Positions 13,109 to 20,045 of a stretch of 47,299 nucleotides of DNA are shown here, piece by piece. A program made the position numbers and the translations under genes. The notes under the pieces are model-generated. The model saw only the letters and a program-made list of their open reading frames with translations. It was not told the DNA's origin and searched no databases. Source of the DNA: Streptomyces sp. 8L (GTDB taxonomy: Bacteria > Actinomycetota > Actinomycetes > Streptomycetales > Streptomycetaceae); NCBI RefSeq assembly GCF_020176795.1, contig NZ_JAIUKE010000033.1:1-47299 (forward strand), given 5' to 3'. The first letter of the stretch is position 1. Each line of letters begins with the position of its first letter.

Positions 13109-13181
13109 GGGGCTATAGCTCAGTTGGTAGAGCGCCTGCATGGCATGCAGGAGGTCAGGAGTTCAATTCTCCTTAGCTCCA
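13109..13181 (+). tRNA. tRNA-Ala (anticodon GGC), copy 1
   Basis: 73 nt. The acceptor stem GGGGCTA pairs with TAGCTCC, with discriminator A and no encoded CCA. The D arm is GCTC/GAGC, the anticodon stem CCTGC/GCAGG holds loop ATGGCAT (anticodon GGC), and the T arm AGGAG/CTCCT has loop TTCAATT. It is identical to the copy at 16679. Confidence 0.97.
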
Positions 13182-13206
13182 CACTCTTTCCGGCGAGATC
13201 CGGAGA

Positions 13207-15928: not shown

Positions 15929-16103
15929 GGTGCCGATACCCCCGTACATCCTGGATTCTGCGGCTATCTGCGCCTATCTCCCGCGCGTAACGACCCGGTG
16001 GTCAGCGGCCGAAGGGGACTTCCGTACGGCTGACCCCTCCGGCCCCGACATGGCAGAATCGGGACGGCCGGAGGGGACGGACGGCCGGAACGGAAGGAGC
16101 ACG

Positions 16104-16265
16104 ATGTCCGCCAGCAGCATCGATGACGATGCGCTGCCTGACGCGGCGGCCGGCTCCAGCTGTCTCAGCTGCCCCTCGTGCGGTTCATCCCATGTGGCAC
16201 AAGTGCTCGGCGACAACGGTGGAGTTTCCTACGTGTGCACGGCCTGCGGCCACAGCTGGAGCTAG
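16104..16265 (+). CDS. Small zinc-ribbon protein (53 aa)
   Basis: 53 aa from ATG 16104, with AAGGAG 5 nt upstream deciding the start. The C-terminal half is a zinc ribbon with two knuckles, CPSCGSSHV and VCTACGHSW, plus two further Cys in SSCLSCPSC. The N-terminus is acidic and disordered. Such short ribbons often bind RNA polymerase or ribosomes, but no specific family is recognised. Its stop is followed directly by a second Cys-rich gene whose start lies within a few bases, so the two are translationally coupled. Confidence 0.75.
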   Translation: MSASSIDDDALPDAAAGSSCLSCPSCGSSHVAQVLGDNGGVSYVCTACGHSWS

Positions 16266-16267
16266 TG

Positions 16268-16501
16268 ATGGGCGCACACAGGCGTACCTGCGACTGGTGC
16301 GGCAGCGGTACGCCCATCGTCAGAGACATGGACCCGCTCAACCCGGACTTCCAGTACTGGTGCGAGGAGTGCGCGCGGGCGCTGATCATAAAAGGCGACC
16401 CGATCGAGACGTACCGCGAGCTGGAGGGCGAGCCGATCTACGGGCGGCTGCTCGACGAGCACTGCACCCTGAAGCGGTTCTACTCGTTCGCGAGAGCCTG
16501 A
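16268..16501 (+). CDS. Small double-CxxC zinc-binding protein (77 aa)
   Basis: 77 aa from ATG 16268 (TGGAG 6 nt upstream; GTG 16265 overlaps the previous stop). It contains CDWCGSGTPIV and WCEECARALI, a four-Cys zinc site with about 25 residues between the pairs. The C-terminal half is helical (DPIETYRELEGEPIYGRL, then HCTLKRFYSFARA). No family name can be given. It is coupled to the preceding zinc-ribbon gene. The tRNA-Ala that follows has its own promoter. Confidence 0.75.
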   Translation: MGAHRRTCDWCGSGTPIVRDMDPLNPDFQYWCEECARALIIKGDPIETYRELEGEPIYGRLLDEHCTLKRFYSFARA

Positions 16502-16634
16502 CCCGGGGCCGGGCCCGTGGAGAACCGCGGGGGGCCTGGTCCCTTTCCCTCCGGCTCCGGCATGCCCGGACGCGTGACCGGGCCCGGTACGTGACGGCCG
16601 GCCCCCGGTCGTGACCGCCGCCCGGGAAGCGGAT

Positions 16635-16665
16635 TTGGTGATCCCCCCTGGTCACCGTGTACTGT
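16635..16665 (+). promoter_or_regulatory. Promoter of second tRNA-Ala
   Basis: TTGGTG (16635-16640), a 19-nt spacer, and TACTGT (16660-16665) preceded by TG. Start is expected near 16672, a few bases before the mature tRNA end. Confidence 0.45.
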
Positions 16666-16678
16666 TGGCGCATCGCAC

Positions 16679-16751
16679 GGGGCTATAGCTCAGTTGGTAG
16701 AGCGCCTGCATGGCATGCAGGAGGTCAGGAGTTCAATTCTCCTTAGCTCCA
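16679..16751 (+). tRNA. tRNA-Ala (anticodon GGC), copy 2
   Basis: 73 nt, base-for-base identical to the gene at 13109-13181. The cloverleaf is complete, the loop ATGGCAT gives anticodon GGC, the T loop is TTCAATT, and no CCA is encoded. Outside the gene the two loci share only a couple of bases on each side. Confidence 0.97.
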
Positions 16752-16808
16752 CAAGATCGAGGGCGGAGTGTATGCGCGGAAAGCGCGAGCCACTTCGCCC
16801 TTTGTCAT

Positions 16809-16840
16809 TTCCGCTCGGCTTCGCTTCCGCTCGGCTTCGC
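16809..16840. repeat. 16-bp direct repeat, two copies
   Basis: TTCCGCTCGGCTTCGC twice in tandem, followed by a partial third copy (CTCG). It lies in the 260-bp spacer between tRNA-Ala and the leuS leader, which holds no gene. Confidence 0.7.
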
Positions 16841-16936
16841 CTCGTCCGGCGGGGCCCATGGGGGCTCCCGAGGCGGACGTCGGGGTTGGAGTGCCCGGGC
16901 GACGTCCACGGTGATCCGCGTCACGCGGATACGGAG

Positions 16937-16963
16937 AGGGCCCGTCCACCGCGGACGGGCCCT
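16937..16963 (+). terminator. Terminator upstream of the leuS promoter
   Basis: AGGGCCCGTCC-ACCGC-GGACGGGCCCT, an 11-bp perfect stem followed by TCCTC. It separates the tRNA transcription unit from leuS. Confidence 0.7.
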
Positions 16964-16976
16964 TCCTCATGCCCAG

Positions 16977-17005
16977 TGCGACGCCTACACGCCCTGCGGT
17001 AACCT
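16977..17005 (+). promoter_or_regulatory. leuS promoter giving a leaderless leader-peptide mRNA
   Basis: TGCGAC (16977-16982), a 17-nt spacer and TAACCT (17000-17005), then 6 nt to ATG 17012. Transcription is predicted to begin at or next to the leader peptide's start codon. Confidence 0.6.
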
Positions 17006-17011
17006 GTCCAC

Positions 17012-17050
17012 ATGCGTGCCGTACGCCTTCTGCTTAGCGAGCCGCGCTGA
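17012..17050 (+). CDS. leuS leader peptide [12 protein letters not shown]
   Basis: A 12-codon open frame encodes [12 protein letters not shown]. The three Leu codons are consecutive (CTT CTG CTT, 17027-17035), and CTT is rare in such GC-rich genomes, so uncharged tRNA-Leu should stall ribosomes here. The stop codon TGA (17048-17050) lies inside the 5' arm of a long hairpin, and an intrinsic terminator follows, before the leuS start at 17160. This is the layout of classical ribosome-mediated attenuation, here controlling the leucyl-tRNA synthetase gene. Coding function is inferred from layout; no homologue search was possible. Confidence 0.75.
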
Positions 17051-17092
17051 TCAGTGCCGACGGATGAGAGATCCGGTCGGAGTCAGCGCGGC
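17041..17092 (+). promoter_or_regulatory. leuS attenuator: nested leader hairpin
   Basis: GCCGCGCTGA (17041-17050) pairs perfectly with TCAGCGCGGC (17083-17092). Nested inside, CCGAC-GGAT (17057-17065) pairs with ATCC-G-GTCGG (17071-17080). A stalled or terminating ribosome on the leader peptide would cover the outer 5' arm, changing what can pair downstream. Confidence 0.75.
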
Positions 17093-17094
17093 GT

Positions 17095-17118
17095 CCCCTC
17101 CTGTGCGAGGGGTTTTTT
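17095..17118 (+). terminator. Intrinsic terminator of the leuS attenuator
   Basis: CCCCTC-CTGTGC-GAGGGG followed by TTTTTT, a complete Rho-independent terminator 41 bp before the leuS ATG. T-tract terminators are uncommon in streptomycetes, which supports a regulatory role. Confidence 0.85.
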
Positions 17119-17159
17119 CATTCCCGCGTGCAGAGACGACCGATGGAGCTTCTGAGGAC

Positions 17160-20045
17160 ATGAGCGAGACGAACCCGGCTGCCGCCGGCGCGGAGAACAC
17201 CGCGGCCCACCGCTACACGGCCGCCATGGCCGCCGAGATCGAGGCACGCTGGCAGGACTTCTGGGACGCGGACGGCACGTACGAGGCGCCCAACCCCAGC
17301 GGCGACCTCGCCGGAGACCCCGCGATGGTGGCGCGGCCCAAGAAGTTCGTCATGGACATGTTCCCGTACCCCTCCGGTGTGGGACTGCACGTCGGCCATC
17401 CGCTCGGCTTCATCGCCACCGACGTCTACGCGCGCCACCAGCGCATGACGGGCCACAACGTCCTGCACACGCTGGGCTTCGACGCCTTCGGCCTGCCCGC
17501 GGAGCAGCACGCGGTGGCCACCGGCACCCACCCCAGGGTCTCCACCGAGGCCGCCATGGAGAACATGACGCGGCAGCTGCGCCGGCTGGGCCTGGGCCAC
17601 GACAAGCGCCGCGCGGTCGCGACGATCGACCCGGAGTTCTACCGCTGGACGCAGTGGATCTTCGTACAGATCTTCAACTCCTGGTACGACCCCGCCGTGC
17701 AGAAGGCACGTCCCATCGACACGCTGGTCGCGCAGTTCGAGAGCGGGCAGCGCCCGACCCCCGACGGCCGCGCCTGGACGAGCCTGAGCGAGGCCGAGCG
17801 CGCCGATGTCCTGGGCGGGTACCGGCTGGCGTACGCCTCGGACGCGCCGGTCAACTGGTGTCCCGGGCTCGGCACCGTCCTGGCCAACGAGGAGGTCACC
17901 GCGGACGGGCGCTCCGAGCGCGGGAACTACCCGGTCTTCAAGAAGAAGCTGCGCCAGTGGAACATGCGCATCACCGCGTACGCCGACCGCCTGGTCGACG
18001 ACCTGGACCAGCTGGACTGGCCGGAGGCCATCAAGCTCCAGCAGCGCAACTGGATCGGCCGCAGCGAGGGCGCGCGCGTCGACTTCCCCGTCGGTGACGG
18101 CGGCGACGCCATCACCGTCTTCACGACCCGTCCTGACACCCTGTTCGGCGCCACCTACATGGTGCTGGCGCCCGAGCACGAGCTGGTCGAGAAGATCGTC
18201 CCGGCCGCCTGGCCCGCCGACACGCACGAGGTGTGGAAGGGCGGCCACGCGACACCGGCCGACGCCGTCGACGCGTACCGCAAGCAGGCCGCCTCGAAGT
18301 CCGACGTCGAGCGGCAGGCCGAGGCCAAGGACAAGACGGGCGTCTTCACCGGCGCGTACGCGGTCAACCCCGTCAGCGGCCAGCAGGTGCCCGTGTTCAT
18401 CGCCGACTACGTGCTGATGGGCTACGGCACAGGCGCGATCATGGCCGTCCCCGCACACGACACCCGCGACTTCGCCTTCGCGCGCGCCTTCGAACTGCCC
18501 ATGCGCTGCGTCGTCGAGCCGACCGACGGCCGTGGTCTCGACCCGGCCACCTGGGACGACGCGTTCGCCTCGTACGACGCGGTGCTCGTCAACTCGACGG
18601 GCGCCGACATCACCCTGGACGGCCTGGGCGTGGTCGACGCCAAGGCCCGCGTCACCGCGTGGCTGAGCGACCGGGGCATCGGCGAGGGCACGATCAACTA
18701 CCGGCTGCGCGATTGGCTGTTCAGCCGCCAGCGGTACTGGGGCGAGCCCTTCCCGATCGTCTACGACGAGGAGGGCACCGCCCACGCGCTGCCCGAGTCG
18801 ATGCTGCCGCTGGAACTGCCCGAGGTGGACGACTACTCGCCGCGCACCTTCGAGGCCGGCGACGCGGACACCGAGCCGGAGACGCCGCTCTCGCGCAACG
18901 AGGACTGGGTCGACGTCGACCTGGACCTGGGCGACGGACGAGGTGTCAGGCGCTACCGCCGCGAGACCAACACCATGCCCAACTGGGCCGGTTCCTGCTG
19001 GTACATGCTGCGCTACCTGGACCCGACCAACACCGAGCAGGCGGTCGCCCCTGACATCGAGCAGTACTGGATGGGGCCGCGCGCGGGCATGCCGCACGGC
19101 GGCGTCGACCTGTACGTGGGCGGCGCGGAACACGCCGTACTGCACCTGCTGTACTCGCGACTGTGGATCAAGGTGCTGTACGACCTGGGCCACATCTCGG
19201 CGTCCGAGCCGTTCCACAAGCTGTACAACCAGGGCATGATCCAGGCCTTCGTCTACCGCGACAAGCGCGGTATCGCGGTGCCCGCCGCCGAGGCGGAGGA
19301 GCGCGACGGCGCGTACTTCTACGAGGGCGAGCAGGTCAGCAGGCTGCTGGGCAAGATGGGCAAGTCCCTGAAGAACGCGGTGACGCCCGACGAGATCAGC
19401 GCCGAGTTCGGCACGGACACGCTGCGCCTCTATGAGATGGCGATGGGTCCGCTGGACGTGTCGCGGCCGTGGGACACGCGCGCCGTCGTCGGCCAGTACC
19501 GGCTGCTCCAGCGGCTGTGGCGCAATGTCGTGGACGAGACGACCGGCGAGGTCACGGTCTCCGACGCCGCGGCGGACGAGGCGACGCTGCGCGCGCTGCA
19601 CAAGGCGATCGACGGCGTCACCCAGGACCTGGACGGGCTGCGCTTCAACACCGCGGTCGCCAAGATCACCGAGTTGAACAACCATCTGACGAAGACCGGC
19701 GGCCCGGTCGCACGGCCGGTCGCCGAGCGGCTGGTCCTGCTGGTCGCGCCGTTCGCCCCGCACATCGCCGAAGAGCTGTGGCACCGGCTCGGCCACACCG
19801 ACAGCGTCGTCCACCAGGACTTCCCGGTGGCGGACCCGGCGTATCTCGTGGACGAGACGGTGACCTGCGTGGTGCAGGTCAAGGGCAAGGTGAAGGCCCG
19901 CCTCGAGGTCTCCCCCTCGGTCCAGGACGCGGACCTGGAGGCGCTGGCGCTGGCCGACCCGGCCGTGGTCGCGGCCCTGGGCGGCGCGGGCATCAGGAAG
20001 GTGATCGTCCGTGCGCCGAAGCTGGTGAACATCGTTCCGGCGTAG
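17160..20045 (+). CDS. leuS: Leucyl-tRNA synthetase
   Basis: 961 aa from ATG 17160. Class Ia synthetase charging tRNA-Leu. The HIGH motif is HVGH (residues 77-80, in [14 protein letters not shown]) and the KMSKS motif is KMGKS (residues 732-736). The inserted CP1 editing domain (~240-450) keeps [20 protein letters not shown] and [16 protein letters not shown], including the Asp that anchors mischarged aminoacyl-tRNA. Anticodon-binding and C-terminal domains end in [15 protein letters not shown]. The length is at the long end for bacteria, mainly through an extended N-terminus. Expression is likely controlled by leucine attenuation in the 148-nt leader. A strong terminator follows. Confidence 0.97.

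Follow-up and report, generated by a model that had tools for sequence, protein, structure and literature searches.

Upstream of leuS, which encodes leucyl-tRNA synthetase (LeuRS), the genome of Streptomyces sp. 8L contains a very short open reading frame with a run of leucine codons, and the question arises whether this region adjusts the transcription of leuS to the charging of leucine tRNA. The stretch of DNA analysed here, in the following called the window, comprises 47,299 nt; Table 1 gives an overview of the leader and its parts. An earlier note, made from the sequence alone, had interpreted the region as a leucine attenuator with a leaderless leader peptide. The alignment of relatives that was proposed there as a check supports this interpretation: leader peptide, Leu run, stop-bearing stem and U-run terminator are conserved, and both the stem and the terminator covary. 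We consider it very probable that a ribosome-mediated transcription attenuator couples leuS transcription to leucine-tRNA charging, and support for the complete attenuator is good.

Table 1 Features of the leuS leader region, with positions in the window
Feature	Position	Strand	Basis or remark
−10 promoter element TAACCT (TANNNT type)	17000-17005	+	direct reading
Leader ORF, predicted leaderless, 12 residues, peptide identical to S. lividans LeuL2	17012-17050	+	sequence; PMC8079986
Leu run of the leader ORF (CTT 17027-17029, CTG 17030-17032, CTT 17033-17035)	17027-17035	+	sequence
CTT at the end of the Leu run, proposed site of the stall, 5 nt ahead of P1	17033-17035	+	
Leader stop codon TGA	17048-17050	+	within the P1 5′ arm
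P1 5′ arm, holds the TGA	17041-17050	+	perfect 10-bp stem with 17083-17092
Inner hairpin P2, variable	17057-17080	+	folds in the window; absent in some relatives
P1 3′ arm	17083-17092	+	pairing, covariation; 17086-17091 also putative antiterminator strand
Intrinsic terminator (17095-17112) and T6 (17113-17118)	17095-17118	+	loop CTGTGC 17101-17106
leuS, leucyl-tRNA synthetase, 961 aa	17160-20042	+	TIGR00396 above cut-off

The individual parts described in the earlier note were recovered by direct reading of the DNA, and all coordinates given there proved correct. TAACCT is followed after 6 nt by the ATG, three Leu codons (CTT, CTG, CTT) stand in succession, and the TGA lies in the 5′ arm of a perfect 10-bp stem, here named P1, which surrounds an inner hairpin (P2). 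The T6 intrinsic terminator is present as described and was also listed by a terminator scan. Three terminator-like sites, including that of the leader, are located between 16000 and 18000 compared to a mean of 0.4 in shuffled sequences, and when the 183-nt region was shuffled 20,000 times, a perfect 10-bp stem within 60 nt arose in 174 cases. The downstream gene had rightly been taken for leuS, as it reached 886 bits against TIGR00396 (cut-off 548); 109 nt separate it from the end of the 12-codon leader ORF, with the terminator in between. A scan of 16000-18000 for promoters with both sigma-70 hexamers gave no hit (0.1 expected), and the support therefore covers the −10 element only, for which TAnnnT has been described as the consensus in S. 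lividans (PMC8079986).

The leuS attenuator, including its leaderless start, is already known and is less novel than first thought, because a prediction dates from 2005 and a report from 2021. In the earlier paper, leuS attenuators were predicted for S. coelicolor and S. avermitilis (Seliverstov et al. 2005; PMC1262725), and a reannotation of S. lividans TK24 (2021; PMC8079986) placed leuL2 before leuS, described as "transcribed leaderless" and followed by a hairpin and a uridine stretch. The S. lividans element has the same 12-residue peptide, the leaderless start, the hairpin with U-run and the position ahead of leuS; compared by peptide and description rather than by DNA, the two showed no difference. 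In its accessible text PMC8079986 names no antiterminator and is silent on the CTT codon and on a spread beyond Streptomyces. PMC1262725 covers just two species, for which leader peptide, antiterminator and terminator were predicted in front of leuS, as they are here; the antiterminator of that paper is possibly, though not necessarily, the helix proposed below, and the accessible text contains no remark on leaderless initiation of the leuS leader. The main text of a Term-seq study of S. clavuligerus (PMC8269248), as far as accessible, does not mention leuS. A literature search with the leader peptide string yielded PMC8079986 as the sole match, and no report of a leuS leader outside Streptomyces was among the literature matches listed, which leave subscription journals mostly uncovered. 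What is added by the present analysis is the spread of the leader over many families of the class and the rare Leu codon kept in place.

For the order, 161 leuS upstream regions were compiled, comprising the window, the best 80 of 591 candidates (79 of these genomes are titled Streptomyces or Streptantibioticus) and 80 regions for which divergent genomes and other genera were given priority. The leader precedes leuS in 160 of the 161. The sole region without it (L111) belongs to one of two leuS copies of its genome (G226), and the other copy (L112) has the leader; the LeuRS encoded at L111 is 78% identical to that of the window. The order leader counts do not include L111 (160 used), and two further leaders, L086 and L090, are missing from those on the antiterminator (158). 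Among the 160 start codons there are 157 ATG and three GTG, and the distance to the start codon from the end of the TANNNT element is 6 nt in 148 and 7 nt in 12 leaders. The leaderless geometry pointed out in the earlier note is thus conserved, and the identical peptide has been reported as leaderless in S. lividans (PMC8079986). Every one of the 160 leader ORFs contains 2-4 Leu codons, and all ten P1 pairs are present in 153; the other seven have nine pairs (n = 3), one bulged base (n = 3) or a parsing artefact (n = 1). In five leaders ending in PH* (L043, L141, L145, L148, L149) CAC replaces CGC and the P1 3′ arm is changed to match. The terminator stem is identical in 80 distinct near sequences. 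In leaders such as L043, L080 and L102-L107 a short stretch takes the place of P2, and P2 was dropped as an essential part of the element since several relatives lack it.

The exact start of the ORF was likewise discarded as a marker of the leader. A 24-base pattern of the ORF start (up to three mismatches) is confined to 44 of 121 family genomes, although 47 of 48 leuS upstream regions from 47 family genomes have the leader, pattern-less ones included, often with different N-terminal codons. The first five leader codons (17012-17026) are almost invariant at the base level in the 81 near leaders and vary in the class. All 81 near leaders carry the rare Val codon GTA at the start of the ORF, compared to 2% of the Val codons in leuS.

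Some further elements flank the leader. Immediately 5′ of its promoter lies a strong GC-rich hairpin (16938-16967; GGGCCCGTCC...GGACGGGCCC, then TTCCT), which probably terminates transcription arriving from upstream, and resembling hairpins are also found upstream of the leader in several relatives. Two tRNA-Ala (GGC) genes (13109-13182 and 16679-16752) are located on the same strand about 3.5 kb apart, and 260 nt lie between the end of the second and the start codon of the leader. Towards leuS, a micro-ORF, ATGGAGCTTCTGAGGACATGA (MELLRT*), extends from 17143 to 17163, and its stop codon overlaps the leuS start. ATGGAG is found 16-18 nt ahead of leuS in 81 of 81 near leaders, and the micro-ORF opened by it closes just before or across the leuS start in 79 of them (as MEL* in 56), with the leuS start being partly a stand-in; in some other genera the micro-ORF abutting leuS is altered or missing.

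A covariance model (R1) built from the 81 near leaders was used for the class. With strict filters, and hence as a lower bound, it matches at least 133 of 394 class genomes and at least 51 of 137 genera; 40 of the 133 genomes belong to the genus of the window. When 60 matches from other genera were fetched, 58 turned out to be followed by leuS (tblastn), the exceptions being a false positive that does not precede leuS (L200) and a locus that stops at the contig edge (L228). The class leader table holds 58 of the 60 loci, L200 and a truncated match (L223) being excluded; as L228, without visible leuS, is among them, 57 of 58 are confirmed ahead of leuS. For L224, L225, L236 and L240 P1 was placed by eye, and these four were left out of the arm-loop tests described below (54 remaining).

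The class leaders encode peptides of 8-18 residues (n = 58), and their start codon lies 6-7 nt after TANNNT in 58 of 58, the start having been picked with that preference. In an alignment fitted to the structure, which includes the window and L200, 98.9% of 968 cells of P1 and the terminator are paired. Changes on both sides of a pair were seen in 10 of 16 pairs and in 60 cells, compared to means of 3.4 and 5.6 in shuffled alignments, and none of 500 shuffles reached either value. These changes concern five of the ten P1 pairs and five of the six terminator pairs. Sliding the partners by 1-3 columns lowered the pairing to 42-55%. P1 pairs 1-4 are nearly fixed in the class, with four one-sided changes and one mismatch in 244 cells.

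Two LeuRS lineages are found behind the leader in L182-L241 (e.g. L187 and L188). The identity of LeuRS to that of the window, determined for the N-terminal part, is 57-68% in 26 loci and 34-43% in 32. One genome (G431) has two leuS genes with a leader ahead of each.

The run-final Leu codon is CTT in all 160 order leaders, of which one (L089) has an additional Leu codon, TTG, after the CTT. Among the 58 class leaders it is CTT in 53 and CTC in five, and in the 218 leaders read it is always one of these two codons and never CTG. CTT is indeed rare, as the earlier note had stated: it is missing among the 76 Leu codons of leuS in the window and accounts for 7 of 5,516 (0.13%) in leuS of 73 relatives, where CTG makes up 95.7%. 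The distance from the run-final codon to P1 is 5 nt in all 160 order and all 58 class leaders. The stop codon, on the other hand, lies within P1 in 41 class leaders, at its front edge in nine and past it in eight, and the early-TAG leaders of one genus (L087, L088, L090) retain the CCGCGCTGA stretch past the TAG. Because the stop codon shifts against P1 and CCGCGCTGA is kept after an early TAG, P1 is kept as RNA. Judged from these alignments, what stays constant is the place that a ribosome paused at the final Leu codon would occupy, and the distance of this codon to P1, not that of the stop codon, would be the conserved rule. CTT and CTC are both decoded by tRNA-Leu(GAG). Seven long tRNA genes of the genome were read, among which are those for tRNA-Leu GAG, CAG and UAA, and the GAG isoacceptor would presumably be the signal.

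A short ORF in which codons for the regulated amino acid stand in succession, an intrinsic terminator between this ORF and the gene, and a stem that would be overlapped by a ribosome stalled as proposed, namely the covarying P1, are thus all found in front of leuS. We propose that transcription starts at or next to ATG 17012 and that a ribosome would engage the emerging RNA at its 5′ end. With ample Leu-tRNA it would complete the 12 codons and depart, upon which P1 would fold and the terminator would halt RNA polymerase. When Leu-tRNA is scarce, above all the CUU/CUC-reading tRNA-Leu GAG, the ribosome would pause at CUU 17033-17035 and mask the P1 5′ arm. The freed 3′ arm (17086-17091) could then pair with the loop of the terminator (17101-17106) before the 3′ arm of the terminator exists, leading to readthrough into leuS. 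The ORF, the promoter spacing, P1, the terminator, the CTT-P1 geometry and the place before leuS are taken from sequence and comparison; from these we infer the stalling, the antiterminator, the isoacceptor sensing and the leucine response.

This scheme was modelled with folding ensembles at 37 °C and a ribosome assumed, following PMC4833913, to cover 12 nt beyond the A-site codon. In the absence of a ribosome P1 has a probability close to 1, and the terminator is formed. For a stall at codon 8 and RNA made to 17108, P1 drops to 0.14 and the antiterminator (17086-17091 with 17101-17106) reaches 0.98, while with the ribosome stalled at codon 6 P1 keeps a value of 0.89 and the antiterminator is at 0. 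The model suggests that P1 would be blocked, and its 3′ arm freed for the terminator loop, by a ribosome at the run-final codon and not by one at the first Leu codon. Nevertheless, the dependence on the codon hangs on the footprint assumed: with 10 nt the codon-8 stall gives 0.41 for P1 and 0.45 for the antiterminator, and with 14 nt a stall at codon 7 already gives an antiterminator value of 0.95. P1 is blocked as well when the ribosome has reached the stop codon (antiterminator 0.97), so that the terminating state needs release of the ribosome. With −7.9 kcal/mol the antiterminator is weaker than the terminator (−10.1 kcal/mol). At equilibrium the terminator therefore wins once its 3′ arm is made, and only the order of synthesis could favour the antiterminator.

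The helix between the P1 3′ arm and the terminator loop (arm-loop helix) is, in our modelling, the best candidate for the antiterminator, and we regard the chances of its being used as about even. A search for helices of at least 5 bp between stop codon and terminator found it at one register in 103 of 158 order leaders and at shifted registers in 12 and 4, and no other helix recurs in more than six. It reaches at least 6 bp in 121 and, with a longer arm allowed, at least 5 bp in 140 of the 158. Loops that were shuffled by themselves pair worse with the arm than the real ones (−3.06 versus −3.82), and the near-invariance of P1 pairs 1-4 is what is expected of a strand with two partners. Against this stands the possibility, to which we assign somewhat less than an even chance, that the leader and the switch formed by P1 and the terminator are real and the arm-loop helix is unused. 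P1 would then aid the folding of the terminator, as an adjacent stem or by shielding the G-rich arm, or a lineage-specific pairing would act instead. In agreement with such a role, 0-2 nt separate P1 from the terminator in the 56 parsed class leaders, and the arm-loop helix has at least 5 bp in 24 of 54 class leaders and is shorter in 30. Covariation of arm and loop was not detected in the class, where matched pairs were no better than swapped ones (p = 0.94). Shuffling everything 3′ of the arm resulted in more stable hairpins (mean −7.25 versus −5.27), which also speaks against the antiterminator.

Other pairings were considered and given up. GGAG (17079-17082) with CTCC (17098-17101) had been put forward in the earlier note as a weak antiterminator candidate; both motifs exist, but GGAG occurs between leader ORF and terminator in only 16 of 81 near leaders, the window included. 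A 5′-terminal hairpin at 17014-17026 (GCGT/ACGC) appears in the fold of the window and is mostly kept in the near leaders, but the N-terminal codons vary freely in the class and the hairpin is not required. For a pairing of ACGCC in the ORF with GGCGT (17090-17094), inspection showed that positions 17093-17094 vary in relatives.

An ordinary terminator that ends upstream transcripts or gives rise to a short stable RNA, with the ORF being incidental, would be compatible with the strong hairpin and its T6, with the lack of an Rfam family match and with the lack of a full sigma-70 promoter in the scan. We consider it very unlikely, since the −10 element, the ORF, the Leu run and the fixed spacing are conserved alongside the terminator, P1 covaries, and S. 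lividans leuL2 was reported to be transcribed from its own start codon (PMC8079986). Equally improbable is that the leader boosts leuS translation via reinitiation or coupling: leader ORFs have been put forward as a source of reinitiation in Actinobacteria and the micro-ORF abuts leuS, but the proposed distances peak at 10-11 nt (PMC4833913), and the 12-codon ORF ends far upstream of leuS with the terminator between. Least probable of all is a T-box, or a leucine- or protein-binding RNA like the LEU element, even though T-boxes at several actinobacterial ileS genes and LEU elements at leuA genes are known (PMC1262725), as the Rfam T-box model matched neither the window at the gathering score nor 16960-17170 up to E = 10. 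The enterobacterial leucine leader of Rfam was also without match in 16960-17170 up to E = 10, where RF02883 (BcKCsr2) with 11.6 bits, below its cut-off, was the only match. Rfam thus contains no known RNA family for the leader, as judged at the gathering score for the window and at the relaxed threshold for the leader.

The ribosome-mediated attenuators of enterobacterial trp and leu operons combine a run of regulatory codons, mutually exclusive hairpins and a U-run terminator, and the leu leader of E. coli likewise uses rare Leu codons. The leuS leader has the codon run and the U-run terminator in common with them, and its hairpins would be mutually exclusive if the candidate antiterminator is used. 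It differs in its predicted leaderless start, in the very small size of its ORF, whose stop codon lies within the stem, and in acting on the gene of a tRNA synthetase. Mycobacterial poly-cysteine ORFs (Canestrari et al. 2020, as mentioned in PMC13236596) resemble the leuS leader, predicted to be leaderless, as leaderless short ORFs with a run of the regulated amino acid; for these, translation attenuation has been named, whereas the leuS leader has an intrinsic terminator.

Taken further, the leuS leader could be an ancient leaderless attenuator of the class that reads a single isoacceptor, with the distance between CTT and P1 as its design rule. LeuRS would then be set by the charging of a minor tRNA, and the leader would have stayed in place with two LeuRS lineages. 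We see this reading as evenly balanced between right and wrong. A specific and cheap prediction, namely isoacceptor sensing, comes from the CTT, which hardly varies and keeps its distance to the switch. As recounted in PMC1262725, mutations of the leader codons had no effect for S. coelicolor ilvB, and for leuA of the same species their effect was inconsistent with classical attenuation. Leaders of Streptomyces therefore need not work classically, and leuS, with its clear terminator, may settle better the question that the ilvB and leuA work raised about classical attenuation. The leuS leader is a clean natural test of attenuation on a leaderless mRNA, where initiation is unlike the textbook case, and it may be a way for Streptomyces and many of its relatives to match LeuRS to leucine-tRNA charging.
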